64,000 nucleotides of DNA, taken from Sipunculus nudus. Lineage: Eukaryota > Annelida > Sipuncula > Golfingiida > Sipunculidae. The stretch spans positions 5,831,464-5,895,463 of the forward strand of contig CM049320.1 in the NCBI GenBank assembly GCA_026874595.1, in the 5' to 3' direction. The notes beneath the pieces are model-generated. The model had not been told where the DNA came from. It made no database searches and was given only the letters and a program-made list of their open reading frames with translations. The translations under genes were made by a program, and so were the position numbers. Position 1 is the stretch's first letter. The number at the start of each line of letters is the position of its first letter. Below, in pieces: positions 1,316-36,464 of this stretch.

Positions 1316-2431
1316 TAGCATACCGATCTAGGCAATGATGTGTATATCACAAATGGGTATCGAAGCTGGATTGAGGAGATTAAATTAGGAAATTATCATG
1401 ATCCTAAATGGGTAGAAACGGGGGTGAGATTGTAGGTATCTCGGAACAGCAGGCTTACAGCTATCTACTAGACTGAAACCTGGTTCCAGTAGGAGGTATC
1501 ATTTAGATATGTCTGTGGAAAATATGACGGTCCTACTCAAGACCCTTTATTACTATATAACAGAACCTATCTTGCTTCGATTAACTTTTAGTTCTATTAG
1601 AGTGTTAAATCCACAGGTCACAATATAATATCCTTTGCCTGTTAACTTATGTATAGGCAATTAAAATATCTCATTAAAGAATAGGTCATGGGATTATTGC
1701 TGACGTTATCTATCTCCTTCAGATAACGGAAACCTTAGAACATGTATGATGGTATTTTGTGAGGCTTTTGAAATTTAAATTTTATACACACGGATAGGGA
1801 AATAAATCAAAAGTCACAACCAGTTATTAATATATTTTAGTTAATATCTGATGCTTTCACGAGATTTCCTAGGTTATTTTCAGGAAAACCTTAGAGTTAT
1901 ATATAGCTCTTTCATATATTTTCAGGTCCCTGGACTATTTGCCCATCATGATATGATATATAAATTGATAATGTTGCATTAGTGCAAACATGTCCTATCT
2001 TGCTTTTGTATTTTTGTTATTCGAACGTTTAAGGAATAAGCGATAATACATTTACTTACAGGAACCATCAGTTGATAATACAATCAAAACATGATATTGC
2101 ATCAATACCTTTTTATTCATGAATTATCCAAGGACGCAGGATTATGAAAATCAGAAATACAAGTTAACAACAACACAGAAAATAATATGCATTTTAACAT
2201 ATTTGTGAAATAAAACTGTTCTCATTATTAATTTTATGTAAAATTATTGTAACCCGAAGTGATTATTAATGACAACATGAGTTCAATTATTGTCTTCCTT
2301 AAAATGTTCATTTACAGTATATTATCTGGGCGATTCAACAAAATTTATATGTGGTATGTGTGCTTTTTCTTCTTTCCCTCTCTACACGTTTGCAAGTGAG
2401 AGGGCTTGTTCCCACTTCACGATCTTTACAT

Positions 2432-5400
2432 CTATGCGAGGCAATCTGAAACAAGAAATCCATACTTTAGCATAATGGACATAACTAGGTTGCATTGTCC
2501 ATGGTAGGAGGAGAGAGTGATTACGGAGGCATGTAAGAGTTGAAACTAGTATGTCCTTGTTTGAAGGAAAGTGATAAGCGTTATGAGACCAGTTTGTTTC
2601 GGTCCGTATGTGAAATATATTTGACTTGATGATTAAATATATATTTTCTAAAAAAAACCGCATACTTTCATCAAGAAATGCTAACAGGATAAATAGGTTT
2701 GCAGTGGTAATCTTGATAAATGCTTAAGGCACTTTAGCACGGAAGATACGAAGTGCGTGTAAAAGTAAGAATAAATGTGATAGCTACCCTCTCCGATATT
2801 TTCGGCATACGTCTGCGGATCAGCACAAGCATCACCAATGTACTCCGACTCAATGTCATCCAGATCAATATTATCCCGTTCACCGGCTTTATACGCGATA
2901 TTAGCAGCATAATCCGTGCATTCACCACCTGACTCGGTGAAACACTGGAAGACTACAAAGTACTCATCCGTCACTTTCAGGAAGCGAATTTGGACAGCTG
3001 AAAGTAGAGTTAGTTGATTTCAGTAACGCTGTTTCTGGATTCCCCGTTTAGTCTATATCTTCTTCATACTTCACCTATATACTTTCATATAAATTGTTTC
3101 CTTTAAACAATTTTGGTTCGGTCAAAGTTTGTTTTACAAAATTAGAAATCAGGATACGGGAATGTTCATACGATTCATCATTTACCACCTAATCAGATTT
3201 CTTGATGTAGTTTTTGCTCAACGCAAGGAACTCAGCTTTTCAATACACTCTGTCTGTGTTTTCCGATCATATTGTGATAACAAATTAAGCTGGTTATTTT
3301 GTTTAATGTCACAATCACAATTAATGTCAGAATTTGACCCCTTATATTGTTGTATGTTTACACATGATGTAGCCCGTACGAATTCTCTTCTGTTGTTCTT
3401 GGTCTTCAATTAATCTGTGTGGACTTTGGCTTTACAGTTAAAGGGGAAGAACATTTATTTCACTGTATAAAGTATAAATGTACTCTCTTTTCGCTTTCAT
3501 TACAAGAGTTATTATTGGATATTACAAAATTCATCCAATTAATTAATGAAATGGTACTCCTCTGTTTTGGCTTACATTTAAAAACAAATAACAAAATAAA
3601 ATATGTTTTTGGCTCAAATATTTTAGCCAGTTTTAATGATCAACACCTAAACGAAAACTCATTCCTAATTTTTATAAATTATACAATTGTATTGCTGATT
3701 ATTAGATCCCGGCATACATTATCTGGTATGATAAGTTAAACATGTATCTCACATTGTTTTATTATCACATTGTTTATATTTCTTTCAGGAAGGTATTAAT
3801 TCTGATGTCTAATAATGACGATATAATATATAATGCTCACTTACTCCCGCCCACAAGGTACGTTCCTTCATCATTGCCCGGTGCCAATAAATTTGGTAAA
3901 CCTAAAACGCATGGGGTGTCACCGTTATTTCTGAAAGCAAAAATTTTCATATGTGTTATTATCAGTGTACAATATAGACAATACACACATATAAACATCC
4001 ACACATAAGTATATATATGTATACTATATTATTCATATTACAATTCCCTCAACGTTTCTTTTAATAATGTTTATATAAAACGCTGCACAAATTAGTGTCA
4101 AAATACCCAATCAGATATTCTGCTATGAATTAAATGTGATTTAGTTGAAATAAAGGTGTAAATGCTGAGATATTGGATACCTCATCTTAGAGGAGACTTT
4201 ATGATTAGCGAATTGGATTACCTTTCCTCATACAGTCCTGGATAATAAACATCAGTATATACTCACGTGTATGACTCTTTGTAATACAGGTTGCCTCCAT
4301 TTCGGTAGACTGTGATGATAAAGTCATATTCAGCAGGTGTGAAGGTCTGGTAATAGCGCCAGCTGACCCACTGGCCGATCAGCTGATAAATTTGATCATA
4401 AGCATTATTGGAAATTTGTCCGTATATCTTACGCAGTTGGAAGAATTATATACATAAACCTATAATACTTCATTATATACATAATTTAACATAAAGGAAA
4501 AATTATATATTATATATAAAGTCTCAAGCAATATTTAAGCCTGGATATCAATCGTTGAAAGGAAATTGTGTTTATGATTTTTTGTTGAATACAAAAAAAA
4601 TCTTCCGAAATCGATTCAAAAAGTTTTCTTTCAAGCACACCAAATCCAAGAACATGACAAATGTATAGCAGTATCAGTATATTTGAATTATCTTTAAATA
4701 TTTATCGCTGTTGATTGAAAGAAAACTTCATGCAAACCTTGTCTTCATTAAAGTCTTCATCCAGGGGAACATTATTGGTGATACAAGTGCCAGCTGCGGG
4801 TGGAAGAGAATATATCAGTTGATTGCAATAGGCAGGCATTTAAAAACAACAATGCTTGCTCATCAGTTCGAATAAAGATACCTGGTTGTTAAAGAAATAT
4901 TTCTTCGTCTATTGCAAATTGAAATAATTATGCAAACGTTTTTAAGTTTTGTGCCTGTTTTATATCTATTGCCAATTTAAAAAATTAAAATCTGGATCTG
5001 TACAACATACTCGACCTGACTCAAATGAGGTTTCAAACTTCCACTTGTTTTACTGACTCAAGAAATTCTCATGGGGAAAGTTTACATAGAAAAAACAGAG
5101 GTGATCTTGGAGAATCTTATGAGCAAGCGTGCTTTACGAAATGTTTATGAAATCCATTTAACACCCCGTATGACATCCGACAGAATCATGCTTTTTAAAT
5201 AATAAAGGCATCCCAAGCTCACATTGGGACTGGAATTACATTAAATAGGGCACACAGGTGGTTTTACTTTTACATTCCCAAATATGAACTAGAACACATT
5301 ATACTGATCATAGGAGCTTATAATAATGGTCCAGGCTTCAACTAGAATATCTCAACATAGGTTAAACATAGCTGGGGATAGAAAACTATGTAGCAACATA

Positions 5401-6139
5401 CTATCCATATTGTCGTCACATCTACACACCTAAAACAGGGCAAGAAGCTCTTTCTTTACAGACAGATTGAAGAATAGTATGCAATGATGTCAATAACTAT
5501 AATTTTTCACACTTTACAAGCCTGTTAAGTCTTTCTCTCTTAACTGCGCCTATAATTCCGCAACATATGCTTGAGCATCTTCTAGTAAAAAGTGGCGATA
5601 TCTTAGAGTAGTCAAAACACTAAATTAACAGATTCAGAATGATAATTTATATGTGATCAACTGATGCAGTACACATATGATCCTACTCAGCCCGCACTGA
5701 AGGTTATGCAGGTCTGAGGATATTCATCGGTGTTATGGCCCATGTTATATGGTTGATTACACACCCAGGACCTGCCGTTAGAAAACGGATTAGGTTGAGA
5801 CCAGAATAAATAGAATGTCATGAGAGAAGCGCTACCGCCCTTTTGTTTAGTCATAATCCTAAATGGAACTCTGCAGATCTAAATACTTAAGATTCAGAAA
5901 AAAATGGAGGCGGTTACCTCAACTAAAAATTTGAAAAAGTCACTCGAAAAATTAGATTATTAAAACAGTTGCCAAAGAATCATAATTCCTCATTCATTTT
6001 TCTGATTATTCTACCCCGACGTTATACATTTGATAATTACTTTCCCTTTCAAAGAAATTGAAAAGTTACCTGAGGTAGGGCGGTTGATGTAGCCTAAGAG
6101 AACCAGGGCCAACCAAAGCACTTTTCTTCCTCCAGTCAT
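2432..6139 (-). CDS. secreted lipocalin-like protein, intact copy (six exons)
   Basis: Coding exons on the minus strand are 6139-6070, 4793-4738, 4382-4267, 3930-3845, 2997-2788 and 2445-2432. They total 552 nt, or 183 codons plus TAG, with GT/AG borders and matching phases (1,0,2,1,1). Residues 1-23 form a signal peptide (MTGGRK, then a Leu-rich core). The mature protein starts near AGTC. The lipocalin hallmark G-x-W is GQW at residues 45-47, preceded by a DEDFN segment. A second motif, TDEY followed by FVVFQC (119-128), matches the lipocalin TDY region. Six cysteines (27, 88, 128, 136, 167, 181) could form three disulfides; the last exon encodes only DCLA and stop. Lipocalins are extracellular beta-barrels that carry small hydrophobic ligands; the ligand here is unknown. 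I start exon 3 at LIGQW because it restores the usual spacing and has a good CAG acceptor. The paralogue at 16444-20130 is broken. Confidence 0.82.
5690..5940 (+). mobile_element. 5'-truncated tRNA-SINE (3' half) in intron 1
   Basis: It shares the 3' body of the full SINEs at 26877-27300 and 34659-35095: the 'tcggtgttatg' block, 'gattacacacccaggacc', 'aactctgcagat' and the tail 'atggaggcggttacct' followed by an A-rich end. The tRNA head is missing. The same fragment sits in the mirror position (16665-16910), so it was present before the inverted duplication. Confidence 0.75.
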
Positions 6140-6226
6140 GATGAGCAATGTTGTGGTTGAGAATTAACTCTGAAGCTAGTGGTCTACACAAACTGAGCAG
6201 ATCCAACTACCTGCTATCCGGCAGTT

Positions 6227-6336
6227 CTTTTATAGACCAGTCGTTCACGTCATATGAGGAAGGCGTGGTCTAATCCAAATATAAGGAATGAGTGACAGGT
6301 GGCTGTAAAGACAGGTGAAAGGTCAACGTGACGTCA
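6227..6336 (-). promoter_or_regulatory. lipocalin promoter: TATA box and CRE
   Basis: Read on the minus strand, TATAAAAG lies at 6234-6227, about 90 bp before the ATG at 6139. A perfect CRE palindrome TGACGTCA lies at 6329-6336, about 100 bp further upstream. Both elements and the sequence between them are almost unchanged in the other copy (16247-16356). This conservation is far above that of the introns and suggests function for CREB/ATF-type factors, which is an inference from the motif. Confidence 0.72.
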
Positions 6337-6695
6337 ATAATTCTTAACGTTGATAATTTTACATTGTTCATAGTGTATATAAATTTATGTATACATCTAA
6401 ATTACTCAATTTATATGGGCTAATGCACCCATAATTGAATCTTAACTGACCCAGAAAGATAAAACATTTTTATTAAGGATTGTCTTTCAAAATCAATAGT
6501 TATAGCTTTGACATCTCAGTTTGTGAATATCATATGGCAATGATAAATTATTTGAAACAGATAAATACACGGGAACAAACAGCTGCTAAAACACATTTGT
6601 GTTGTATCAAATTCAGTCTGCAAATGTATTTCGTCGTTTTAACATCCCCCCTAATTTCTTACGTACATTCAGAACATGTTGCAAGCTATTCATGT

Positions 6696-6698
<3 letters not shown>

Positions 6699-6766
<68 letters not shown>

Positions 6767-6792
6767 ATATATATTTATATTTATATATATGT
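6699..6792. repeat. (TA)n microsatellite
   Basis: A nearly pure TA run with a degraded tail (atgtatata, atttatat). It is missing from the matching place in the right arm, so it expanded after the duplication. It creates spurious YIYIYI open frames. Confidence 0.95.
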
Positions 6793-8640
6793 CCGCGGAA
6801 TTGTCATATTCATAAATTTGAGTATCAAACCCGATATTTGATGTACAAATTCAAATTGCTATTAATAACTGATATAAATTTCGAACTTTTAAATTTACCA
6901 ATATGAAGAAATTTGCCATTCACAAAAAAAAATTCAGGTTAATCCAGCAAAAATTAAAAAGTTTAATCTATATAGTTACATGATACCGAGCTTTCGTGAT
7001 CAAATGACGTTAACATTTATAAATTCTTGTAGCTGCAGCACCGGCCTTTTGTCTCCATTCACGTTTATATATTATTAAATCACTTTTAAACAAGGTGAAC
7101 GAGCCAGGACATTGAGGTAGCTAATGAAATCACCAGAGTTTAAATCATACAACAAAAAGGCGAAGCTTTTCGGCTTATGCCCGCATGTCGCAGTCAATAC
7201 CGCAAATGAAACCAAAATGTTACATTTCAGTCAATCATGTCAGTGCTTAGTGTTGTACGAAATAGAAATATGTCTTTTATTTCACCGAGTTAAGCATTAG
7301 GACATAAAAAGCCAGCTGATGGCATTCTTCTAAAAAAATCGGTCGTTTTAAATAGTTATGTTATAATACAATTTCCATCAGCTTAGTCATTTTTACATAC
7401 ATTTTGTCTTTTAATGAACAAGAACAATGAGATCTAGAACAATGTGATGCAACAAGAACACCAAGGCCCATTCATCTTAACACCTCACACTAGTGCTTTT
7501 TTCTTTCAAAACCATTATTACCTGTTATAAAAACATATGGAGCATATTTCTCACAAACACAATCTGCCTGCTATGCACACGCAACAAGTAAGCTGAAAGT
7601 TGCGCATTTTATTGCAGCAGTGGTTTCATTTTATATGTTTGAGAAATCTAAATATTAAAGCAAATTGTAATAAACTTCATAAACCGTGTTCATATTTAGG
7701 TTTCCTTTTTGTACTGGACTATAAAATAAATATAATTCGTTCAATGTTTTGTTAATGCTTAGAGATTATTTCTCTTATTAATCCAGCAACTTTGCTTTAC
7801 ACAAGCTGAATGAGGCTTTGGCACAATTCACAACAGATAAGGTATGTGTTAAGTGAATGTAACGCTGATGGGAAAATCCAAATAGATTTCGACTGACCTT
7901 TTACATTTATGCATAAAAGGCATAATTTTTGAGTATTCATTTGAAAATATTTGTTAATCCAAAAATTGTGGTTTATATTTTTAAAAATAAGTATTGAATG
8001 TCAAGAACATTCAATTATTTCAAATATGATATCGTAAACACATTTCTTTTAATAGATATTTCATAGACGGGGGTTACAATATCAAACGAAAAAAAAGTCA
8101 TACACAAATAATATATTGCATAAAATATATATAAAGCCTTGGGTGGTCATTGTAAAATTATGAAACGTTTCCTTCTTGAAATTTGATCACACTTCAACCA
8201 TCTTTACCGGGCCTCATCATTGTATTGAGCTTAAAACTGTCACTTTTAATACCGGTGTTTAGGATTCTGACTGCTTCATGCGGTAGGCCTGACCATTCAT
8301 ATGTCATAGATTTCTAGTTTGTTGCTATTGGATTTCATGTAGGGTGGCACATCTCTGTGCTTATTATTACACGATGGCGCTTTAGAGTGAATGATGCTTA
8401 AGAAATTGGGGGTGCATAACGATCAGATTACCTTCATAAACACATTTTTATTAAGCATAAAATATAGTATCAGTCACCTGACTTAGTGTCAATCCTGTAT
8501 TGATGAATTCAACAGAGGAGAGTCATAATGGTTAGCTTTACTAGCATCGGAAACGAAACAGACAACGGATGCTTTTAAACCCGAAGTTATAGCTTAAATT
8601 ATTGCACATGTGATAAAAGAGACACTCGGGTACCAGCCCT

Positions 8641-9590
8641 CTGTTAGGAGACAACTGGTAATTGGGTCGCGACAGTGGCTCCACTAAAAGTTGATGATTT
8701 AGGGAAGAGCTAACACACCAAAACGGGACAAAAGTTTTGTACATAATAATAACCGACCGCAATATTTTAAATATAAGAAATATAACACAATGAATATGTT
8801 TGAATTTACAAATAAAACTATATGAACACAGGATGTAGGTAGCTGATTCAGTTTTAGCCCAAGGGGGCGTCATTTAAGGTCTAATCATCGTCAAACAACC
8901 TTGGTTTAATTTAGCTCTAGAATTTATATTAATAATAATTTTAGACACAGTGAAGTATTTATATTTAGAATCCTTAGAATATTCTCTATCAGATGATATA
9001 TATATTAAAAAGTGTAACAGTGTCCACTTTGAAAATTTTAAACTTGAAATGATTTAAATTTTTTTTTTAATTGGATGTATCTCAAAATTGGCATAGGGTA
9101 TGTATGTGGAAATAGTATCATTTGAAACTACATACAAATATCTCCAGGCGTTTTTTTGGTTATATATTTATTGTCTTTTTTTCATAATGAATTTTAAATT
9201 TAGAAAAAAAGTGTGATGTTAACAATACTTTTTTCGTTTAAATTACGTATTTCTACTACACTAAAAACGATATAGGAAAAAGAAAAAAACGCATTTTAGA
9301 ATACTTGTTGATTCACCTATATGCAAAATTTGAAGACTCTATATTCGAAGGTTTTTGAGAAATATCGCTCTGAAGACCGTACAGTCTCCTGAAATACTGT
9401 TTTGAGAAAACGGCCAAAAACTGTTTGGGAAGAGAAATTTCGTTTTGAGTGGAAAACAGGGATATAAGCGCAAGTGACAGTTGTATTTTTTCACTAAATG
9501 TTCCCATGAGAATCGGTTTCAATATATAAATTATAAAATTTAATGGTTTAACAATGTTAAAAACAGGATTTAATTAGGCATCATGACAAC
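8641..9590. other. spacer of the inverted duplication, no gene seen
   Basis: AT-rich with poly-T and poly-A runs. The open frames at 8541-8873 and 9313-9522 (minus) are not supported by family or splice evidence. Confidence 0.5.
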
Positions 9591-10500
9591 TGGAGAACTG
9601 TCAAACTAAAGTAGGCGGAGCTTACTGGTCCGAGGGGTCGGTCATCGGTAATCAGGTCATGGGCTACCGCGCCGGGGCACGCGTCAGGTGTGAAGTGACT
9701 GATAAGAACGATCACTCTGTTTACTATGGTCTCTCATTCAGACCACCATATACCCTAATCCAATTAATAGCTTCTCTCTCCCTCTCACAATTATATATGA
9801 GACACTACATAGCTAGCAGCAACTCTCTCTCTCTCATCAGATTTATTTACATCAGTCATATACGCGCTAAATCGTGCTGTGGCCGCCCTTCCTTTACCGA
9901 TCGCTCTTATAGCTAAGACTCCAGCGCAGTTCACTTCGCAAAATTTGTTAGCAGGCGACGTGGTGGTGTAACTTGGTGCCGCATTCCTCTCACAAAATTC
10001 ATTCGTGCAACGCAGTCCCATATTGCTGCACCACCCTCGGCGTTTATCTATATCCTCCACTAACGATAAATGGACCCTGGGAGAAATGTTATAGTGTATA
10101 ACAGGGTCAATATTACAGAAATAACAATCGGTAAATTCATATTTCTAGGTATATTCTTGGTGCCAGGACCATTATTGGGTGACACTTACATATTTTAGGG
10201 CAGTGACATAGACATTATTCGGCGACTGGAGGAGTACAGATTGTACAGTTAATTCTGGGTTAGGCGTATAGGGGGGACGTGTTTGTATTAATTAGTGCCA
10301 ATTAGTAAGTGCCGGTAATAAAGATAAGCTCTTTCCCGGCTGACTGATCGCGGCTTCCCCACGCCTGTCAATCAACCATTTGCCTAATACCACGAGCGCA
10401 TGGTTAACCAATAAGCAACTTACACGCTAACTCTCGCCGAGCTGACAGTTGGTCCTGTTTGCACCCCACGTGGGGTTGACATCTGAATTAAAATACTTTT
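9591..10500. other. GC- and CpG-richer block of unknown role
   Basis: It has noticeably more CpG than its flanks (gctaccgcgccggggcacgc near 9664, cgtggtggtg near 9960) and a (TC)n patch near 9770-9835. An 89-codon minus-strand frame at 9791-10060 starts with GTG rather than ATG and is not recognised. It could be a promoter-like CpG region or an inserted repeat. Confidence 0.3.
10430..10482 (-). CDS. possible short coding exon, unrecognised
   Basis: On the minus strand, TTTTAATTCAG is followed directly by ATG (10482). The frame reads MSTPRGVQTGPTVSSARV and ends at a good donor, GT followed by GTAAGT. No partner exon was found and the family is not recognised. It may be chance. Confidence 0.2.
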
Positions 10501-10990
10501 TTTTCTAATTAATACAATATAACCCCAGGAACGTGTTTTTGTGAAAAGATAGATATAGCAAACATCTATAAAACCAGATGCTTTCCAGAAAAATGTAATT
10601 TTCATGATTTTTGACGAAGATTATACCTTAAAGGCGTAAAGGAAAAAAAGGAAAAAGTAATAAATATACAGTGATTTGTTTGATTCTGATCTTTTGTAAG
10701 AGAAAATTCTCAATTTACTCACTTATAATGTCCTACATTGTAACTACCGTCCTCATTTGATGAACTTTTTTTCTTCTTGAAATTGTTTAGTTTTGGCAGC
10801 AGTAAAACAATTCAAGACGGTAGAACGAATGTATTTAGACAAAAATATTTAATTACATAATCCAAAGTTTTAAGTTCTTATAGTGGGGATGACGTTTCCA
10901 AACATGTGCACGGTGAACTCGCTAACTCCGGTGAACACAGATCATAGGTATCAATGAGCATGGTGGGTAATGATGGTGACTTCTTTTCAG

Positions 10991-11148
10991 ACCACCTTTG
11001 CGATAAGACCCCTTGTGGAATGCTTTACTACAAGTATCCATCTTTCGAACCAAGGTGTGATTGGATAATTATACCTGGAGAGGTGTATATTCAAGATGAA
11101 TATTCTGATTTTCTTATTCCTACTCCTGTACCTGGATTCCGAAGCTAA
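10991..11148 (+). CDS. possible Cys-rich terminal exon, unrecognised
   Basis: A strong acceptor (cttcttttcag, ending at 10990) opens into a frame that runs to TAA at 11146-11148. The peptide has a C-x-K-T-P-C motif, then LYYKYPSFEPRCDWIIIP, and ends in PVPGFRS. Three cysteines and several aromatic residues suggest an extracellular domain end. Upstream exons were not found. It lies between the two arms of the inverted duplication and is followed 22 bp later by a long hairpin. It may be an orphan exon left by rearrangement. No function is assigned. Confidence 0.35.
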
Positions 11149-11170
11149 TTGTTGTATGATTTTCAACTTA

Positions 11171-11248
11171 TGATTGAAAAAATATGAGCCATGGAATATA
11201 ACTTTGTTTTAAAAAAAGTAATATTTCATGGCTCATATATTTTAATCA
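11171..11248. ncRNA. 78-nt imperfect hairpin, possible small-RNA precursor or MITE remnant
   Basis: Arms 11171-11199 and 11221-11248 are complementary over about 28 bases with few mismatches and one bulge (core ATATGAGCCATG against CATGGCTCATAT), with a loop of about 21 bases. Size and shape resemble a pre-miRNA, but nothing shows transcription or processing. It could equally be a fold-back remnant of a DNA element. Confidence 0.3.
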
Positions 11249-11538
11249 TGAGATATTCTCAAACCTTTTCGATTGAAATGAAAAAAGTTCTAGGAAGGTT
11301 CAGCTTCATTGTTTTGCTTCATTCTTAGGAAAAACAACCGCGTTTACATAGTTTTGTAGTTTGAACATATGATATGTTAAAATGTTTGGTCTAAAGGAAC
11401 CATACAAAGAGCCAAGAGGTTTCTGATTTATGTTAACATTTCCAGGTATAATAAGCAATTATTAGAATAACTGTGTCTCTACATCATGTGTTTCAAGATC
11501 AATGAGATTTGTTTTTCATTTTTGTTCATATACTTTAT

Positions 11539-11540
<2 letters not shown>

Positions 11541-11599
<59 letters not shown>
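11541..11599. repeat. (AT)n microsatellite
   Basis: Pure AT dinucleotide run of about 30 units. Confidence 0.95.
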
Positions 11600-11602
<3 letters not shown>

Positions 11603-11837
11603 GAAAAACATCGTCCTTTCCTTCTTAGCTGACACCTTTTGAAACAATGTCAATATCAAACTTTGAACCAGTAGCGTATTCTCTCTATCTCTAGCCTCCG
11701 ATGCCTATGTAATTTTTAACCATTATATTATTATCGCTATATATTCCTATGTCGGCTTTCATCACCAAGTCTTTGAACTCGGAGGAAACCACATGTCCAA
11801 ATACCTGTGTGGAATGCTGAATGTTTTCCTGTGGCAA

Positions 11838-12160
11838 GGCATTGTGCTTTAACTGATAAAATGATTTATATGACATGATTAACTGAAAGGTAACATGATT
11901 GTTTCATTTGCGCCGTTAACGGCACCATGCGGGCAACAGCTCCGACCATTGGCTTTTTTTTCTATGATTTACTCTCTCGGTATATATTCAGTTACCGCAC
12001 CGCGCTGACTCGTTCTCCGTGTATACAACTGATAAAAGTATACATCTACCTAAACAAAAACCGAGACTACTTGCAATATGAACATTATTTGGCCACGAAA
12101 CGGGGATATTATGTTACTATTAATCTTATGAACATATTCGCACCATTAATCTTATAATCA
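11838..12160 (+). pseudogene. third, degenerate copy of lipocalin upstream sequence
   Basis: It aligns with right-arm 5' flank 15340-15720 in the same orientation. Shared blocks are 'catgattaactgaaaggtaacatg', 'gtttcatttgcg', 'catgcgggca', the 'atgatttaaactctcg'-like stretch and 'cacgaaa..gg.tat.atgt.act'. It is more diverged than the two arms are from each other, so it is an older duplication. No coding exon remains attached. Confidence 0.6.
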
Positions 12161-13757
12161 TTTGAGACTTTAAGGCAGGAGATGTTTCACGGTTTACTTG
12201 CAGGTGAAACATATCTCGGAAAAAATGGAAGCCCTTATCTCCACAAACATTAAAAAAAAATTGAAACATGCACTAATGTTTGTATACAAAGAAATTTTGC
12301 CAGGGTTGCTACTTTAAGAAGGCTGGAAGTCCACTTGAAACAATTTCGATTTAACCCCATTCATTTTTGCAAACTGATATTAAGAAATAGCCAATCTTAA
12401 ACACGATTGACACACATGTAAAAAAATGAACTATGTTGAAAATAATGAAATGAATCATAATAGTCAGTGAAAAACAAAAGTTTCATTTAAAAAAATGAAA
12501 TCTATTTGAGGAATATATAATCGTTTAAAAGGGTTACACATCTTATTTAAACATACCTAGAAATACATATAGTATATTTCCCCACCTGCGATAAGTTTCT
12601 AAAAAGATTATATTTTTCAGTTATTTCCTAGAAAACTACATATGGTAGAAACAATGATGGTACAAGCTTTAACTAATGATTGAGTATTCATACGTATGAT
12701 ATAATAATATATTGTATCAACTTTATTTCATAAAGTTCAAATGCTTTCGATTATTGTTTTATATTTATTTATTTTTTTATCTTTCACTGAGGCTAAAATT
12801 CATCATTGTCAATTTATGTTTTGCTGTCAAACATAAATTTAGCCTGCAAATGCTTAGGAGATTGTAGACAGTAGTAAAGTATAAATTTCTGTATGTGCAA
12901 AAAACTAAAATTCTTAACATAAATATATAATAATGGTATTTACGACAAAAAACATATGATAATATTCTCCAATTGGCATTTTAATATTTTTATTCAGATA
13001 TTTCACCTGAATGTATTTGTTGATGCGAATTCTCGAAATTAACAAAGTAGTGTAAATCTGTCACTTCACACACCAATCACTCAAATGACGCAAAATGTAC
13101 TTAGTGATATATAGAAGCAGGCATGATGATGTAAGTGCGCTATGCAGCATGTTGTCCGCTTAACAGCGCCGCTTTGGTAAATCAGCCCTGACAAAAGTCC
13201 GTTTCCTAAAATTTCAGTCATCTTGCATTGTGTGATATTGATTTAACTCTGATGGTAACTGCTTTATATAATTAATAATTTCTAATTCATAGAATTATTT
13301 TATTTCAGTAAATAAAACTGTTATATCTTTTCTGTCTGACAAATATTAGTCTCAAATAAAACTATGTAATGTTACCGAGATTAGACGAATTTGGAGCGTT
13401 TAAATACCCTGCCTACAAATTAGAGTCACAAGTGCCCCTTACAGTCCTTTTTAGAGTAGAACAGTCATCCAAATGATTATGTGATCATTATGTAACTTTT
13501 TAGATCATATTTGTAATTGTTTTAAGCGACATAAAGTATTTACCCATTTTCTTTTGAGCAAAAAAGAACCAGATAAAATGTAACTACACCATTTTGTTTT
13601 AGTAACCAACATATGCACAGTTGCTTTGTGTTTTATTTCACTCTTTGAAACATTAATGTGAAACCAATTTACGCAGTGATTTTTAGGAGATTATTACAAG
13701 CGCTATTTCATGTGACAATATAAATGACAATACACGCATTAAGGTAATCGATTACAG
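12161..13757. other. spacer, no gene seen
   Basis: Very AT-rich. A small fold-back (ATGTTTCAC / GTGAAACAT) lies near 12182-12212. Nothing else is recognised. Confidence 0.5.
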
Positions 13758-13968
13758 TACGCCAGCTGAACCACTGGCCTATCAGCTAAGAAAAGTTGAT
13801 TATAAATCAATTTGTGTCCGTAGTTCATGACAAATAACTTATGCAGTTGAACGAATTATATACATAATCCCATAATATTCCATTATATACATAATTTAAC
13901 ATAAAGGGAAAATATATGTCATATATAAAGTCTCAATCAATATTTAAGCCTGGATATCAATAGTTGAA
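13758..13968 (-). pseudogene. orphan lipocalin exon 3 start plus intron 2 piece
   Basis: On the minus strand, CTTAG is followed from 13785 by codons for LIGQWFSWR, matching the start of exon 3 of both lipocalin copies. Homology to intron 2 continues upstream to about 13968 (shared 'tttaagcctggatatcaa' and 'aaagtctcaa'). It breaks off inside exon 3 at 13758 and at 13968, where the right arm begins. The intron part is closer to the right copy (it shares 'catgaactacggacac'). Confidence 0.75.
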
Positions 13969-16246
13969 AAAGGGCTAGTACACAAATGTCTCTTTTATCA
14001 CATCTGCAATAGTTTAGAGCGATAACTTTGGTTTATGTACATCCGTTGTCTGTTTGGTTTCCAATTCTAGTAAAGCTGAACATTATGACTCTGTTAAATT
14101 CATCAATTGACTTTAAATCAGATGACTGGTACTATATTTCATGCTTAATAAAAGGTGTTTATGAAGATAATCTGATCGTTATGCATCCACAATATTTTTT
14201 TAACATCATTCACTTAAAAGAGCCGTGGTGTAAAAATAAGCACAGAGATGTGCCACTCCACATGAAAACCAATGGCGACTAACTAGAAATCGATGACAGA
14301 TAAATGATCAAGCCTACCACATGAAGCAGCCAGAATCCTAAACACCTGTATTAAAAGAGACAATTTTAAGCTTAATACAATGATGAGGCCCAGTAAAGAT
14401 GGTTGAGGTGTGATCAAACTTCAAGAAGGAAAAGTTTCACAATTTTTCAATGACCACCCAAGGATCGACTGCATTATATAAATTCTAGCCAAAATAATAT
14501 TTTTGTATGATTTTTTTATTGTTTTATAGTGTAACGGCCCTGTAAAGGAAATATCTTTTTTATCGACGATATCAATATTTTACAACACCATATTTAAAAT
14601 AATTGAATTTTTTTTCTTTCAACACTTATTTTTTATAGTAAAAACCACAATTTTTTTAATAACAAATATTTTTTTTCAAATGATTACTCAAGGATTATGC
14701 CTTTTATACAAGCATACATAAACTTATGTCAATTTAAAAGGTCAGTGAACAACTGTCTGGATTTATTCATCAGCGTTACATTTACTTAGCACATACACTT
14801 ATCTGTTGTGAATTGTGCCAAAGCCTCATTCAGCTTGTGTAAAGCCGAAGTTGCTGGATTAATAAGAGAAGTAATCTCTAAGCAATAACAAAACACTGAA
14901 CGAATCATATCTACAATTTATTTTATAGTCCAGTACAATAAGGAAACCTCGATATTGACACGGTTTATGTAGTTTATTACAATTCGCTTTGATATTCTGA
15001 TTTCTCAAACATGTATCATGAAACCACTGCTACAATAGAATGCGAAACATTTAGCTTACGTTTTGCGTGCGCATAGCAGGAAGGTTTCGTTTGTGAGAAA
15101 TACACTCCGAATGTTTTTGTAACAGGTAATTTTGAAAGAAAACAAGCACTAGTCTGAGGTGTTAAGATGGATGAGCCTTATTGTCCTTGTTGCATCACAT
15201 TGTTCTAGATCTCATTGTTCTTGTTCATTAAAAGACAAAATGTATGTAAAAATGTCTAAGCTGATGGAAATTTATTATAACTTAACTATTTAAAACGACC
15301 CATTTTTTAGAAGAATACCATCAGCTGGCTTTTTAAGTGCAACTGTCCTAGTGCTTTACTCGGTGAAATAAAACACATATTTCCATTTCGTACAACACTA
15401 AGCACTGACATGATTGACTGAAATGTAACATGTTTGTTTCATTTGCGGTATTAACTGCGACATGCGGGCATAAGCCAAAAAGCTTCACCTTTTTGTTGTA
15501 TGATTTAAACTCTCGTGATTTCAACAGCTACCTCAATGTCCTGGCTCGTTAACCGTGTTTACAAGTGATTTAATAATATATAAACATGAATTGAGGCAAA
15601 TGGCCGTTGCTGCAGCTTCAAGACTTTATGAATGTTCACGTCATTTGATCACGAAAGCTGGGTATCATGTAACTCTATAGATTAATTATTCTATAATTTC
15701 TGCACGATTAACCTTAATAATTGTTTTTTTGTGAACGGTTTTAATTTCTTCACATTGGTATATTTAACAAAGCTTCGAAATTCATATCATTTATTAATAG
15801 CAATTTGTATTTGTTAACCAAATATCGGTTTTGATACTCACATTTATTAATATCACATTTCGGCGGACAGAATTTATATAGATGGTGCATGAATTACTTA
15901 CAACATGTTCTGTAGGTACGTAAGAATTTAGGGCGGGGGAATGTTAAAACGACGATCCATCTGCAGAAAGAATTTGACACAACAAAAAATGTGCAGTTTT
16001 TTTGTTCCCGTGGATTTATCCATGTCAATTAATTCTTCATTGTCATATAAAATTGATATTCACAAACTGGAATATCAAAATGATTACTTTTCATTTGGAA
16101 AGAAATCCTTGATATAAATGCTTTTTTATCTGGATCAGCTAAGATTCAATTACAGGTGCATTTGCCCTTATAAATTGAGTAATTTAGATGTATATATAAT
16201 TTATATACACTATGAACAATATAAAATTATCAACGTTAAGAATTGT

Positions 16247-16356
16247 TGACGTCACGTTGACCTTTCACCTGTCTTTACAGCCACCTGTAACTCATTCCTT
16301 ATATTTGGATTAGACCACGCCTTCCTCATATGACGTGAACGACTGGTCTATAAAAG
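16247..16356 (+). promoter_or_regulatory. promoter of right lipocalin copy: CRE and TATA
   Basis: CRE TGACGTCA at 16247-16254 and TATAAAAG at 16349-16356, 88 bp before the ATG. It is the mirror of 6227-6336 and nearly identical, so transcription may persist although the reading frame is broken. Confidence 0.72.
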
Positions 16357-16664
16357 AACTGCCGGATAGCAGGTAGTTGGATCTGCTCAGTTTGTGTAGA
16401 CCACTAGCTTCAGAGTTAATTCTCAACCACGACATTGCTCATCATGACTGGAGGAAGAAAAGTACTTTGGTTGGCCGTGGTTCTCTTAGGCTACATCAAC
16501 CGCCCTACCTCAGGTAACTTTTGAATTTTTATGAAAGGAAAAGTAATTATCAAATGTATATTGTTTGGATAGAATAATTAGAAATGAATCAGGAATTATG
16601 ATTCTTTGGCAACCATTTTAATGATCTAATTTTCCGATTGACTTTTTAAAAGTTTAAGTTGAGG

Positions 16665-16910
16665 TAAACGCCTCCATTTATTTCTAATTCTTAAGCTAAG
16701 TATTTAGATCCACAGAGTTCCATTTCGGTTCATGGCTACACAAAAGGACGGTAGCTCTTCTCTCATGACATCCTATTTATTCTGGTGTCAACCAGACCGC
16801 TTGTCTAACGGCAGGTCCTGGGTGTGTAATCAACGATATAATATGGGCCATTACACCGATGAATATCCTCAGACCTGCATAACCTTCAGTGCAGCCTGAG
16901 TAGGATCATA
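16665..16910 (-). mobile_element. 5'-truncated tRNA-SINE in intron 1 (mirror copy)
   Basis: Same SINE fragment as 5690-5940, in the mirror position and opposite orientation. It shares 'tgtgtaatcaacgat' and 'gggtgtgtaatc' with it, and its A-rich end lies at the low-coordinate side. Confidence 0.72.
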
Positions 16911-18582
16911 TGTGTACTGCACCAGTTCATCACATACGAATTATCATTCTGAAACTGTTAATTTAGTGTTTTGACTAATATAAGATATCGCTACTTTATT
17001 TTCTAGAAAATGTTGAAGCATATGTTGAGGAATTACAAGCGCAGTTAAAAGATAATAACTTAAAAGGCCTGTAAAGTGTCAAAATTATAATTATTGGCAT
17101 CATTACATACTATTCTCGTATCTGTCTGTGAAGATAGAGCTTCTTGTCCTCTTATTATATTTGGTGTATAGATGTAAACGACAATATGGATAATATGTTC
17201 CTACATACTTTTCTATCGCAAGCTTTGTATCCCTTATGTTGAGATATACTAGTTGAATCTGGGATCAATTTATTAGCTCCTATGACCAATATAATGTTTT
17301 CTTGTTTATATATTTAGGAATGTTGAAGTAAAACTATTTGTGTGTCCTTTTGAATGTAATTCAAGTCCCAAAATGTAAGCTTGGATGCCTTTATTGTTTA
17401 AAAAGCCTGATGCTGTCCAATGTCATACGGGTCGCTAAACGGATTTCATAATAATTTCGTTAAGCACGCTTGCTTATAAGATGCTTCCCAGATCAACTCT
17501 GTTTTTCATGTAAAAATTCCCCATACGAATTTCTTGAATCAGTAAAACATGTAAAAGTTTAAAACCTCATAGGAATCTGGCCCAGTTTGTTATACAGATC
17601 CAGATTTTAATTTTTAGAATTTGCGATACATTTATATGAAACCAGCACAAAACATAAAAAGTCTGCATAATTATTTCAATTTGCAATACATGAAGAAATA
17701 TTTCTTTACCAGCCAGGTATCTTTATGCGAGCTGGTGGGCAAGCATTGTTGTATTAAAATGTCTGATTATTGTATTCAACTGATATCGTCTCTTCCACTC
17801 GCAGCTGGCACTTGTGTCACTAATAATGTTCCCCTGGATGAAGACTTTGATGAAGACAAGGTCTGCATGAAATTTTTCTTTCACGCAACAACGATTAACA
17901 TATAATGATAATTCAAATATACTTACACTGTTATACATTTGTTCCCGTTATTTCATGACTTTGGATATTTTGTGTTAAAAAAACGATTAAAATTAGTTTC
18001 TGAAGTTTGGTTTGTATTCAACAACAAAATACTGAAAAAAAAAAAATATTTCACCCATAGATATCCAGACTTTAAAATTGATTGAGACTTTATATATAAC
18101 ATATATTTTCCCTATATGTCCGATCAGAAATATGTATATAATTCTTCATACTGCTTAAGATATATATCATGAACTACGGACACAGTTACAATTTTGCTTA
18201 TAATCAACTTTTATAAGCTAATCGGCCAATGGGTCAGCTGGCGTTATTACCAGAACTTCAAACCTGCTGAATATGACTTTATCATCACAGTCTACAGAAT
18301 CGGAGGCAACCTCTATTACAAAGAGTCGTACACGTGAGTATATAATGATGTTTATTATCTAGGATCATATGAGGAAAAGTAATCTAAATCGTCAATCATT
18401 AAGTTTCCTCTAATATGAGGTATGTCCCAGCATTTACACATTTATAGCAACTGCTTTTTTTAACCACATTTAATTTACAGCTAATTTTTATCTGATTTGA
18501 TATTTTTCACATTATTTTGTGCGGCTTTCTAAATTAATATTATTGGTAGGAACGTTCAGGGAATTGTACTGTGAATAATACA

Positions 18583-18650
18583 GTATATATATATATATAT
18601 ATATAAATATATTTATACATATTTGTGTGTGTGTTGGGGGGGGGGCGGTT
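18583..18650. repeat. (AT)n, (TG)n and poly-G patch
   Basis: A short TA run near 18583-18604, then tgtgtgtgtg and a run of nine G near 18637, inside intron 3 of the broken lipocalin copy. It is absent from the left copy. Confidence 0.85.
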
Positions 18651-21325
18651 GGTATGGTATATATTTGTGAATGGTCTATAGTGTACACTGAGAATGACAC
18701 ATATGAAATCTTTTGCTTTCAGAAATAACGGTGACACTCCATGCGTTTGAGGCTTACCAAACTTGTTCGCACCGGGCAATGATGAAGGAACATACCATGT
18801 GGGCGGGAGTAAGTGTGCATTATATATAAGATCGTCATTATTAGACTACAGAATTCATACAGTCCTGTAAGAAATATAAACATAATGTGACAATAAAAAA
18901 ATGTGAGATACATGTTCAACTTATCATACTAGATGATGTATGCCGGGATCTAATAATCAGCAATACAGTTTTATAATTTATAATAATAAGTAGTGAGTTT
19001 TCGTTCAGGTGATCATCTAAAAACTTTTTAACCAAGTACTGATTATATTTTGTTATTTGTTTTTAAGGTAAGCCAAAACATAGGAGCACTTTGTAATATC
19101 CTTTAATTACTATAATGATGAGAGCGATAAGAGAGGACATTTATACTTTTTATAGTGAAATAAATGTTGCCTATAACTGCAGAACCAAAGTCAAGACCGA
19201 TTAAATGAAGACTAAGAAGACGAGCTAAATCACGCGTAAACATACAAAAATATTAGCGGTTAAATTGTGACATTAAATGTGATTGTGACATTAAACAAAA
19301 TTACCAGCCTAATTTGTTATCACCAAATCATCAGCAATTGCAGATACAGTGTATTGAAAAGCTGAGTTCCTTGCGATGAGCCAAAACTACATCAAGAAAT
19401 TTGATTTGGTGGTAAATAATGAATCGTATGAACTTTCCTGTTTCCTGATTTGAAAATTTGTGAAAAAAACAGACTGAGCCTAAATTGTTTACAGAAAACA
19501 TATAATATCAAAGTGGATAGGTGAGGTATTAAGGAGATATAGACTAAACGGGGAATCCAGAAACAGCGTTAATGATATGAATTAACTTTACTTCCAGCTG
19601 TCCAAATTCGCTTCCTGAAAGTGACCGATGAGTACTTTGTGGTCTTCCAGTGTTTCACTGAGTCAAACGGTGAATGCACGGATTATGCTGCTAATATCGC
19701 GTATAAGGCCGGTGAACGGGATACTGTTGACTTGGATGACATTGAGTCGGAGTACATTGGCGATGCTTGTGCTGATCGGCAGACGTATGCCGAAAATATC
19801 GGAGAGGGTAGGTATCACATGTATTCTTACCTTTACACCCACTTCGTATCTTCCGTGCTAAAGTGCCAAAAGCATTTATAAAGATTACAACTGCAAACCT
19901 AATTATCCAGTTTACATTATAGAATACATATTTTATCATTAAGTTCGAATAAATTTCACATACGGACGGAAGAAACTGGTCTCACTTTTCGTCAAGCAAC
20001 GGCGTATTGGTTTCAACTCTTACATTCCTCCATAACCACTTTTGCCTCCTACCAAGGATTATGTAACCTATTATAAAGTATGTCCATTATGCTCAAGTAC
20101 GGATTTCTTGTTTCAGATTGCCTCGCATAGACGTTAGGTTAGCGAAGTGGAAACAAATCCTCTCACCAAACGTGTAGAGAGAGAAAATAGAAAAAGCAGA
20201 CAAACCACATATAAATTTTGCTTATTTACCTAAATAATATGATCTAAATAAAACTTTAAGGAAGACAATAATTGAACCAATGTTGTCATTAATAATAACT
20301 TTGGGTTACAAAAATTTTACATAAAATTAATAATAAGAACACTTTTATTTCACAAACATGATATAATGCAAAATATTTCCTGTGTTGTGGTTAACTTGTA
20401 TTACCGTTTTCAAAATTCTGCGTCATTGGATATTTTCATGAATAAAAAGGTATTGATGCAAAATCATGTTTTCATTATTTTATCAACTGGTGGTTCTTGA
20501 AAGTGAATGGCTAGATAAAAGGCATCCCTTAGACGTTCCAATAACAACAATACCAAACAAGAAAATAAATTTTAGCACTTATGTTACACCTTCACATTAT
20601 ATACAAATGACGATGGGCAAAATGTCCAGAGTCCTGAAAAAATATGCAGGTCCTAAAGATCATTCCAAGGTTTTCTTGAAAAACAACCTTAGAGAACTCG
20701 GGAAAGCATCAGAGATTCACTGAACTATGTTAATAATGACTTTTGAATTATTTCCTAACCCATGTGAGTAAATTTTAGAATTCGAAAGCCATGCGAACTA
20801 CCATCATAAGTCCTAAGGTTACCGTTATCTTAACAAGATAGATAACGTCAACAATACTGCAAAGACCTATCATTCAATATTTTCCAAATACCTTACATAA
20901 GTTAACATGCAAAGGATATTATACTGTGGCTTGTGAATTTGTCATGCTAATGCTTATACATTAAGTCTAATGGGTGGCTTATGTTGGGTAAGCAGAAATT
21001 AAATTAGGCCTAACATAAATACTTGGATAGAACTAAAAGTTTATCATGGCATGATAGGTTTTCTTATTCAGCAACTAGGGGACTTGAGATGACAGTGATA
21101 TTTACCAAAGACATATATATATATATATGATAACTCCTACTGTAACCAGGTTCCAGTCTAATAGATAGTTGTAATCCTAATGCTAATAGGTATCTATTAC
21201 CTCTCGCCCGTTTCTTACCATTGAAGATCATGATTATATCCTGAAAGAGCCGTCACACAAATTAAGTCGATCCAGCCGCGATACCCATCTGTGATATAAA
21301 CATATTTGCCTATATCGGTATGAGG

Positions 21326-22326
21326 CTTGACAGTAGCTACAAATTGTACCGCTTGACACCAACATTTGTAGTCTTCATGCTGCACAAGAAATATGTTCCC
21401 AAACGTATTTTTACTGCTGACGTATTTGTGTAGCGTTTATAAGGATTAGTGATCGGCTTTAATCATAACGGACGAATCGGGAATATCCTCATGGAAACAG
21501 CATGCACGTAAGAAAACAAAAAGATTTATAGAGGAATTAAACAAATCATCAATACAAACACAAACCGAAATTGAAACAACAATCTCCGGTCAATTAGACA
21601 AGTATATGCACCGATTCTAATGACGATGAAATACTTCTGGTGGCAAACATGGAAACGACACTGACATCAGGCCTCTGAACAAGACCGGCGTCTATTAAAG
21701 ACCGGCGTTTATTTTTCTAGAACATTGTTTTGCCCAAGCGAGTAAATATGGCAGGCGACTATTTAAAGCCCCGCGTCTGAACCAGGAAATACGTTAAAAC
21801 TTTAACAGCGTCTTCGCTTTGCACTCAATGCAATGAACCACCAAAGGCTCTCTATATATCGTTTGCATATTACCTATAAATCCTTCATTTAAGTAACATA
21901 AATGTTGAGACTTATGTTACAAAGATAAAAATCCCTGGCTTACAACATACAGGTCAGTGTGCATTTTTATAAGAGTTTTTTTGTGTGGGGGTAACCGCTT
22001 CTGCTATTTTATGGTATCGGCTTGAGGCTATGTGATGGGGCGAAAGAATGTATGCTCTGATAGCATAATAATAAATTGTAGTAATTTTAGTCGGCCAGAT
22101 CAATTCTCGTATAAGGACGCCAAAACGTTTGAGTAAGAAGGGCAGATTTGAAATCATGTATTATAAATTATAAAGTGAACTATTTTTTAATATTTAAGAC
22201 ACATGAACATATTATTTAAAACATATTTTTCATAATATAAACATCATAATGGATTACACATTATGTAATATCCGAGATATTTTTTTCTCTTTCTCTCTTT
22301 CTTTCCTCTCTCTCTCTCTCTCTCCT

Positions 22327-26862: not shown

Positions 26863-27314
26863 GCGTTGAGGACCTTTTTTTTTTTTTAAAGATTTTTTTG
26901 GTGGAGGGAACCGCCTCCATTTTTTTTAATGCTTGCTTAACTAAGTCTATATACAACCGCAGAATTTCCATACCGGTTTCGGACTCCGTGACAGGGGCTT
27001 GCACACAAGGCTCTGGCGTCAACCAGGCTCGGTGATTCACTCCTGCGGGTCCTGGGTGTGTCTCATCCCCATTGCTGGGTCATAACACCGAGGAACCCCC
27101 GAAAGGCGCACTCGTTTGTGAGTGAAACCCGACTGTTGGGTACAGTCTCCCCACTGGGCCTGCAGAGCACCCACCCTGGGTAGGGGTCGACTGTGAAAAA
27201 TCTCACCGGCTCGGCTGAGATTCGAACTCACGATCTCCCGGCTTTGAGCCCTGCGCTCTACCCCTGAGCCACAGAAGCCGGTCGTATCTTGACAGTTTGA
27301 GCGTTGAGGACCTT
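26863..27314 (-). mobile_element. full-length tRNA-derived SINE with target-site duplication
   Basis: The body is 26877-27300 on the minus strand. The 5' tRNA-like head has an A box (TGGCTCAGGGGTAGAGC) and a B box (GAGTTCGAATC), as recognised by RNA polymerase III. The body is unrelated to tRNA, and the 3' end carries a stem-loop TGGAGG..CCTCCA followed by an A-rich tail. A 14-bp target-site duplication (AAGGTCCTCAACGC on the minus strand) flanks it at 26863-26876 and 27301-27314. The 3' stem-loop is probably the partner-LINE recognition site, by analogy with other SINEs. Confidence 0.9.
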
Positions 27315-33653: not shown

Positions 33654-34318
33654 TCATACTTCTTCACAGTCCGTTTGATCTAACTGAAGCGTGGGTGCGG
33701 TGGCTGTTTTTTCGAGCGTAGGCGTTTCCTCAGCACCTACAGTACGTAGTTCCGGCATCGTGTGCATCCGATTAATACGCTTTTGGCGCGCAGACATCGC
33801 TCGCGACATTTCTTTGGGATAATTGTTGTATATAACTCCGTCACAGGGTTTTTCCACGACCTTGATACTTTCTATATTTTTCGGTGCGTGTTTGAACCGA
33901 GGCTCACGAGGCTGTAAAATTCTTATACGTCCCCACTTGTGCAAAAATAATCCTATCGCAATAACCCACGCTATCAGAGCCAGGGCTATAAGTCCAATCT
34001 CTCCCACCGAGATATGCATGTCTGGTGTCATTGTACCTGGAAATGACAGAAAAGAAAAATATATCTGTCGATATTCGTATCCGCAAGAATACACATATTT
34101 CAAGAATACCCTGTCAATCAATTTATTTTACAGACCTGTCAGATATATATTACAATTTTTTTTTATTTATTCATGAATAATTACAAAAATGGGTACGTTA
34201 TAAACTAACATGAACACAAATATATGAGCAAATTTTCCGGACAGGCAATATCTTGTCACTGTCTTTTGAATAAAGTAGGAGAAAAACAGAAGATCAGAAT
34301 TTCCTGCGGTTATTGATC

Positions 34319-34380
<62 letters not shown>

Positions 34381-36464
34381 GCCACACGTTTAGTATATTG
34401 TACAAATATCAGGGTATACTGAACGAATTTTTCGCGATAATGTCAGATTCGCATATATTGCTAATTTTAACTACCGTACACACAAAGCTAACCACAGTCA
34501 GTGAGTCAGTATTTAGTGGTGATCAAGCATTTTCGTTGGTTATACGACATGCAAATATTTAGTGTGTACTTTTATTAAAACAGAATGAATGATGAATGAT
34601 TTCGTGTTAATCTTCAGTAATTTTTTTAAATAATAGAATAATCAAACGGTCAAGATACGACCGGCTTCTATGGCTCAGGGGTAGAGCGCGGGACTCAAAG
34701 CCGGGAGATCGTGGGTTCGAATCTCAGCCGAGGTGATGAGGTTTTTCACGGTCGGCCCCCACCAAGGTTGAGCGCTCTGCAGGCTTAATGTGAGGGCAGT
34801 ACCCCACAGCCGTGTATCACTTACATACGAGTGCGTCTTTGGGAGGTTCCTCGGTGTTATGACCCAGCAATGGGGATGATTACACACCCAGGACCCGCAG
34901 GTGGGGCAGACACCTATCCTTGGTGACACCAGGATACAAAATAAAAATGATCGGAAGCGAGTGTTATCGCCCTGTCAAGTAGTCCCAAACCGAAATTGAA
35001 ACTCTGCAGATGTCTATAACTTAGATTTAGAATTAGATAAGTCAGCATTAAAAATGGAGGCGGTTACCTCCACCAAAAAAATTAGAAAAAAAACTGTCAA
35101 GATACCCTGAGAAACTGGGAGTTAAGTGTATGTGAAGAAGAAAGGGAGTACATGATAAATTCAAGATATTAGTAACCTTTATGTTCAAATAACAGGTTTC
35201 TCCAACCAGAAAGATGAAGGAAGAAAATCTATTTTCACGAGGCACCTTTTGTTCCTTTTTACATCTATGCGATAACTCCAAAACATAAAGACAGCGGACA
35301 AATGGAACGTCGTCTGGTGATGCTGTTGGGATCAATAGCAACTCTGCCAAGATTAGATGTATAGTGATCGCTGATGATAACCCGCCATCAGAGGTAGACG
35401 ATGGACCCTCAGACTGTTCGAAGTCAGACTGACTCACCCAAGAACATTGAAAGTCCTGGCCATAAATCCATGTAATTACTCAATATAAAACACCCTGGGC
35501 CGCCCTTTTGAATAGAGAAGACAAATCAGTAAGCTTTATCTTTCAGTAAGGTAATGGTTATTCGGCTGATTAATTGGTAAACTCCTGTTACAAACCGTCC
35601 GTTTGTCCTTGTGATTCACTGATTATATAAATTACCATTTTGCTTATTTCTAAGCCGAAACGATCTAGCCTCACCATTACAGTGACATTTCCAGGAATTC
35701 GTACAGAGCATTTTCGTCAGTTCTTTAGACACTAAGGATTTTATGGTCCCTTTCCTGGGTGTACATTACAGTACCATCCCCGGCAAATCCCCTTCAATCA
35801 AAATCAATCAAAAAGTCCTACAAAGTTGACATTGGACCAATAAAGTATATATCCTTTCAAACCGGATGTACTGTACCTTCAAGTGATATTTGCATTTAGA
35901 ATACTCATTTATAAAACGTTCATTTAAATAATTTTAAGGATTTGGTACATTTTTATTTTTATTAACGCTACAGGGTTTTAAGCAAACAGTAACAGTAAGT
36001 TTAAAAAATGAAAGTTTTACCCTTTTTAACTAAAAATGAAAAAAAAAAATTTTTTTTCAGAAAAAAATGATGGAGCGGAAAGCAAAAGTCGATTTGGTAA
36101 TCCTGTTCTTCAAGGATAGGTCCATGGCCAAATGGTTGTACTATCCTATGCAAGAGAATCCATGTTATCATTAAACCTGGAGGTAATAACCTAAAGTTCA
36201 GATGTTTGAGCAAATCTCTGAGAATTTTACCAATTTGCCTTTCAGGTCAGGGTATCTTTTAACATGCATTTTGCCCTTATTTGTGCATTATAATTGGAAA
36301 GGCGCAGTTGTAATTTATTTTTTTATGCCCATCACAGACATCAATAAAAACGTTTTTATGATCCTGAGTAAATAATTTAATGTAGTCGTATACTCATACC
36401 AAGGTTACAACATGTCATCCTTCCAATCATAATTCACTCATAATAATCATGTTATATACAAAAG

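Follow-up and report, generated by a model that had tools for sequence, protein, structure and literature searches.

An old inverted segmental duplication in Sipunculus nudus with one open and one interrupted copy of a putative secreted-protein gene

Two copies of a small gene lie on inverted arms

We analysed a 64,000-nucleotide stretch of the Sipunculus nudus genome (assembly GCA_026874595.1, contig CM049320.1, positions 5,831,464 to 5,895,463 of the forward strand; hereafter the window), in which two copies of a small predicted gene, A and B, lie on the arms of an inverted duplication (Table 1). Collinear inverted arms of about 7.3 kb around a 5.3-kb spacer had been proposed in a previous sequence-only reading, and comparison of the window with itself bears this out. 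Self blastn paired 1607-8640 collinearly with 13971-20940 on the minus strand, the top minus-strand block between the arms scoring 2471 bits, and extension of the blastn matches by global alignment set the arm limits at approximately 1316-8640 and 13971-21325, with a spacer of 5330 bp. In the alignment over 13971-21325, which reaches position 1320 as the last aligned base of arm A, 6056 of 7051 aligned columns are identical (85.9%; 574 gapped columns). The 995 substitutions comprise 463 transitions and 532 transversions, and there are 90 insertion or deletion (indel) events. Beyond these limits a forced alignment drops to ~45-70% identity with many gaps; the end at 1316/21325 is less sharp than the other one, its outermost 100-150 bases being ~69% alike. 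Collinear inverted arms of this length are well above chance and identify a real inverted segmental duplication, and their 86% identity together with the 90 indel events implies that the event is old.

Each arm carries a predicted gene of six coding exons, whose lengths (70, 56, 116, 86, 210 and 14 bp) are equal in the two copies. The models are transcribed divergently, each pointing outwards; their coding parts span 6139-2432 (minus) and 16444-20130 (plus), inside outer arm ends at 1316 and 21325. All five introns of copy A and all five of copy B begin with GT and end with AG. Copy A has an uninterrupted frame of 183 codons for a predicted protein with six cysteines, the first 24 residues of which resemble a signal peptide by eye. 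Scoring the stop described below as a mismatch, the two proteins agree at 170 of 183 positions. The product of copy A is probably a small secreted, disulfide-bonded, lipocalin-like binding protein.

Copy B is interrupted by an in-frame stop codon

The outward orientation and equal exon lengths agree with the two six-exon genes described earlier, but the 183-residue product holds for copy A only. In copy B, codon 90 (18748-18750) is an in-frame TGA, overlooked before, whereas copy A carries a sense codon there; tblastn with the copy A protein also displays this stop. The TGA removes the second half of the predicted copy B protein and, as a disabling lesion in an intron-containing copy, marks copy B of the assembly sequence as a putative duplicated pseudogene.

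Comparison of the copies points to past constraint on both sides of the stop. Identity is 91-97% in exons 1-5, complete in the 14-bp exon 6 and 79-86% in introns 1-5 (2552 of 3017 bases when pooled). With codon 90 of 183 excluded, the Nei-Gojobori method gave 0.21 synonymous (dS) and 0.031 nonsynonymous (dN) substitutions per site and a dN/dS of 0.15 (codon bootstrap 0.07-0.29). Six nonsynonymous and ten synonymous changes fall upstream of the stop, seven and twelve downstream, and dN/dS is 0.15 in either part. If B had been neutral since the duplication, the pooled intron distance would predict ~19 nonsynonymous changes past the stop on the B branch alone, and the probability of seven or fewer with B neutral throughout is 0.002. 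The low dN/dS, including that past the stop, thus suggests a period of constraint on B after it arose. Probably the stop was gained later than the duplication; otherwise it would be an allele still segregating, or an erroneous base.

Two ways around the stop were considered and rejected. For selenocysteine at the TGA, no selenocysteine insertion sequence (SECIS) family was among the four Rfam matches obtained up to E 5 in 17700-21400; more distal sequence was covered at gathering level only, at which the whole window gave no Rfam match. Skipping of exon 4, which measures 86 bp, would shift the reading frame.

The putative promoter and exon 1 are nearly identical between the arms

The highest similarity between the arms lies around the start of the gene, where 285 of 292 bases (16239-16530) are identical without a gap. 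Ahead of the start codon, the putative promoter patch contains the words TGACGTCA and TATAAAAG; these recur in the window (4 and 8 places, respectively), so by themselves they prove nothing. The longest run free of differences between the arms measures 141 bp (16290-16430), against a mean longest run of 34 and a maximum of 59 in 1000 column shuffles. One further run exceeds the shuffle maximum, 69 bp at 15186-15254 in the well-kept upstream stretch. This stretch and its diverged relative in the spacer, relic F2, have reading frames that are open in short stretches only, and the frame is not common throughout.

In the identity profile along the arms, short patches stand out (the upstream stretch, the putative promoter with exon 1 and a few isolated windows), but no long homogenised tract is seen. 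Gene conversion along the arms is thus not evident, and the suggestion that arms of this kind would be prone to it finds little echo in their 995 substitutions and 90 indel events. The near-identical patch could be due to selection or to conversion; as just two copies are compared, selection on a core promoter and conversion are not separable here.

Copy A has lipocalin-like motifs and gene layout

Lipocalins are marked by an N-terminal G-x-W (motif 1), a T-D-x-Y (motif 2) and an arginine that follows the final strand of the barrel (motif 3), and vertebrate lipocalin genes have intron phases 0-2-1-1 with an intron just before the G-x-W. The copy A protein has LIGQW at residues 43-47 and VTDEYFVVFQC at residues 118-128, in agreement with motifs 1 and 2, and Arg150 after AYKAGE is a candidate for motif 3, the register of which is not fixed by sequence alone. 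Of 200000 composition shuffles, one reproduced the order G-x-C, G-x-W, T-D-x-Y...C, for a pattern written with the protein in view; the combined pattern also matches bilin-binding protein. The intron phases are 1, 0, 2, 1 and 1, and the phase-0 intron sits two residues ahead of the G-x-W. According to PMC3695081, both the positions and the phase of introns are conserved among tick lipocalins, and exon-intron work is mentioned in PMC8420045.

Similarity searches and structural comparison lend no support to membership of the family. Pfam yielded no family up to E 1, and none up to E 10 with three queries, a search in which the HMMER filters drop most weak matches; the control, Escherichia coli Blc, was recognised by PF08212 at 4.5e-45 and PF00061 at 4.7e-08. 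Sequence searches of the PDB up to E 10 returned two and one matches, with no lipocalin among them. Pairwise z scores were 0.44 with Blc and -0.01 with bilin-binding protein, within the range of shuffles, against 12.7 for a control pair, and hhalign gave a probability of 0.1 to the alignment with Blc, although this was in G-x-W register. The predicted fold of the exon-5 piece (69 residues) has three strands, a helix, a strand and a helix, at a predicted local distance difference test (pLDDT) score of 63.7; none of its 77 matches in the PDB was at E 0.001 or better, and lipocalins were absent among the 50 of the 77 that were listed. The earlier lipocalin label keeps its motifs and the intron that precedes the G-x-W; none of the profile, pairwise and fold tests gave it significance. 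We regard the lipocalin-like description, which derives from motifs and gene layout, as plausible and do not file copy A as a member of the family.

The spacer holds two relics of the arms

Two relics in the spacer, at 13759-13969 (F1) and 11871-12033 (F2), had been overlooked in the sequence-only reading, the geometry of which otherwise stands. F1 is 211 bp long, is separated from arm B by a single base and reaches into the first codons of exon 3. With gaps counted, blastn gives 82% identity to copy A (4357-4560) and 74% to copy B. In a three-way alignment with gaps excluded, identities are 172/198 for F1 and A, 158/190 for F1 and B and 152/183 for A and B. These values are alike, so F1 is about as old as the arms. 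Among 177 ungapped columns, F1 agrees with A against B at 16 sites, A with B against F1 at 11 and F1 with B against A at 9; F1 is perhaps nearer to copy A than to B. F1 may have been copied in as filler when the duplication arose, or be the remnant of a third gene copy; if it is filler, arm B would be the daughter. A target-site duplication around the unit of F1 and arm B was considered and rejected, as just a 5-base match, ACAGT, occurs near both ends, which is unremarkable for two 30-base flanks.

The spacer also contains an imperfect 86-base palindrome (11167-11252), possibly the relic of a small transposon. Part of copy A intron 1 (5723-5938) has a weak match (67.6%) at 34847-35090, overlapping one member of an inverted pair of a 260-bp repeat (27042-27300 and 34642-34901, 86.6% identical).

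Other features of the window

Pfam was run on 9 of the 92 stop-to-stop open reading frames (ORFs) of at least 75 amino acids in the window and found a family for two of the nine. These exon-like ORFs, on the minus strand at 33657-34127 and 38376-38831, match DUF4808 (4.9e-14) and fibronectin type III (4.1e-07), and perhaps belong to one membrane-protein gene. Tandem repeats comprise a ~4 kb minisatellite at 51753-55750 (unit ~31-34 bp, with strong GC skew), an array of 3.9 copies of a 341-bp unit at 48556-49880, and 21-bp repeats with a TAATTCGTGCGCACGAA-type unit at 61514-61930.

Table 1 Features of the inverted duplication (window coordinates; UTR, untranslated region)
Feature	Position	Strand	Basis or remark
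Arm A of inverted duplication	1316..8640	-	self blastn; arm-to-arm alignment
Copy A exon 6 with stop codon	2432..2445	-	splice + ORF model
Copy A exon 5, T-D-E-Y motif	2788..2997	-	splice + ORF model
Copy A exon 4	3845..3930	-	splice + ORF model
Copy A exon 3, G-Q-W motif	4267..4382	-	splice + ORF model
Copy A exon 2, G-T-C motif	4738..4793	-	model; weak donor GTTTGC
Copy A exon 1, start codon and signal-peptide-like segment	6070..6139	-	splice + ORF model
Copy A putative promoter/5' UTR patch, TGACGTCA at 6329-6336, 5' end of TATAAAAG at 6234	6140..6344	-	
Spacer between arms	8641..13970	.	self blastn
Relic F2, diverged copy of part of upstream stretch	11871..12033	+	74% to arm B, 72% to arm A
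Relic F1, part of intron 2 and start of exon 3	13759..13969	-	blastn to 4357-4560; three-way alignment
Arm B of inverted duplication	13971..21325	+	self blastn; alignment, 6056/7051 aligned columns identical
Upstream well-kept stretch, arm B	15178..15569	+	95%, 95%, 90% identity to arm A (150-column windows)
Copy B putative promoter/5' UTR patch, TGACGTCA at 16247, TATAAAAG at 16349	16239..16443	+	202/205 identical to A
Copy B exon 1	16444..16513	+	splice + ORF model
Copy B exon 2	17805..17860	+	model; weak donor GTCTGC
Copy B exon 3, acceptor ends AAG (copy A: CAG)	18218..18333	+	
Copy B exon 4, in-frame TGA at codon 90 (18748-18750)	18723..18808	+	model; stop displayed in tblastn
Copy B exon 5	19598..19807	+	splice + ORF model
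Copy B exon 6 with stop codon	20117..20130	+	splice + ORF model

Discussion

We consider it likely that an old inverted segmental duplication copied a single small secreted-protein gene together with its upstream region, and that one duplicate then decayed in the ordinary way. A copy of the 7.3-kb block would have been set down in reverse beside the original, with the 211-bp scrap at its edge arising from a template switch in the duplication event or being left over from a third copy. Both genes would then have been expressed from TATA-type promoters under purifying selection, and B would later have been disabled by its stop, unless the TGA is a null allele or an assembly base error. Other inverted segmental duplications with an interrupted daughter likewise have collinear arms, a common upstream region, one open copy and one premature stop; we see no categorical difference here, and the gene scrap at the arm boundary provides a useful breakpoint marker. 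Several points weigh against this account. The exon models of both copies are predictions from sequence alone, and the intron 2 donor is weak in both. The timing bound is loose, as B unconstrained for up to ~65% of its history still gives a P of 0.08. The TGA is the only coding lesion in B, with no frameshift, and a single lesion would look alike under fixed loss, under a null allele that still segregates and under a base error.

This last point leads to the alternative that both copies are functional and that the TGA reflects a wrong base in the assembly or a rare variant carried by the sequenced animal. Such a reading would explain why dN/dS is as low past the stop as before it, why frameshifts are absent and why all five introns of each copy retain GT/AG; yet a lone TGA is a normal first lesion in a duplicate, and the AAG acceptor of B exon 3, in place of the CAG in A, is perhaps a second weakening. 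We consider it unlikely. An artefact of assembly, or a head-to-head join of two haplotypes, as the source of the arms (a concern raised in the earlier reading) can be set aside as extremely improbable. Assemblies are known to fail by creating false inverted duplicates, but alleles normally differ less than the two arms do, and a substitution level of 14% with 90 indel events across 7 kb misfits two alleles. Moreover, the 5.3-kb spacer resembles the arms at two short relics only, and a relic adjoining the breakpoint is itself unlike two alleles. For the near-identical putative promoter patch, homogenisation by gene conversion between the arms is doubtful but carries some weight: the 141-bp unbroken run far exceeds the shuffled runs, and the identity over 16239-16530 is gapless. 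Against it, selection alone could preserve identity in this patch, which covers the TATA-like box and exon 1, and column shuffles take no account of selection; the 69-bp run at 15186-15254 also beats the shuffles, beside the stretch to which the old relic F2 is related. Conversion enters a more elaborate scenario as well, which as a whole we hold to be very unlikely. In it, F1 would be a templated insertion, replication having copied 4357-4560, jumped, and copied from 8640 back to ~1316; arm B and F1 would form the daughter, conversion would have kept the promoter patch while the coding part of B decayed, and what persists of B may be a promoter or an RNA and not a protein.

The nature of the product is weighed separately from the history of the arms. 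That copy A encodes a secreted protein other than a lipocalin is somewhat unlikely in our estimation. This would agree with the Pfam, PDB, shuffle, hhalign and exon-5 model comparisons, all of which lack lipocalin support. However, it would leave the three motifs in lipocalin order to an arrangement seen in 1 of 200000 shuffles (for a post hoc pattern), and the phase-0 intron before the G-x-W and the phases 0-2-1-1 of introns 2-5 match the vertebrate pattern. Compared with known lipocalins (PF00061 and PF08212; ApoD, bilin-binding protein and bacterial Blc), copy A is alike in small size, in a signal-peptide-like start (by eye), in the G-x-C, G-x-W, T-D-x-Y...C order and in the family's intron before the G-x-W, and differs in having no detectable profile or pairwise similarity. 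Among invertebrates, mollusc-shell proteins with a lipocalin domain can be likened to it by description only, as given in PMC10543319 and PMC9365450; the roles of mollusc lipocalin-domain proteins still need characterisation, as stated in PMC10543319.

The reading of this locus as two genes is thus corrected: one gene is open and its duplicate is interrupted. The locus also offers an old inverted duplication in which a breakpoint scrap is preserved. Should copy A be a lipocalin, it escapes recognition by Pfam, which would bear on the number of invertebrate-type lipocalins that have been overlooked.

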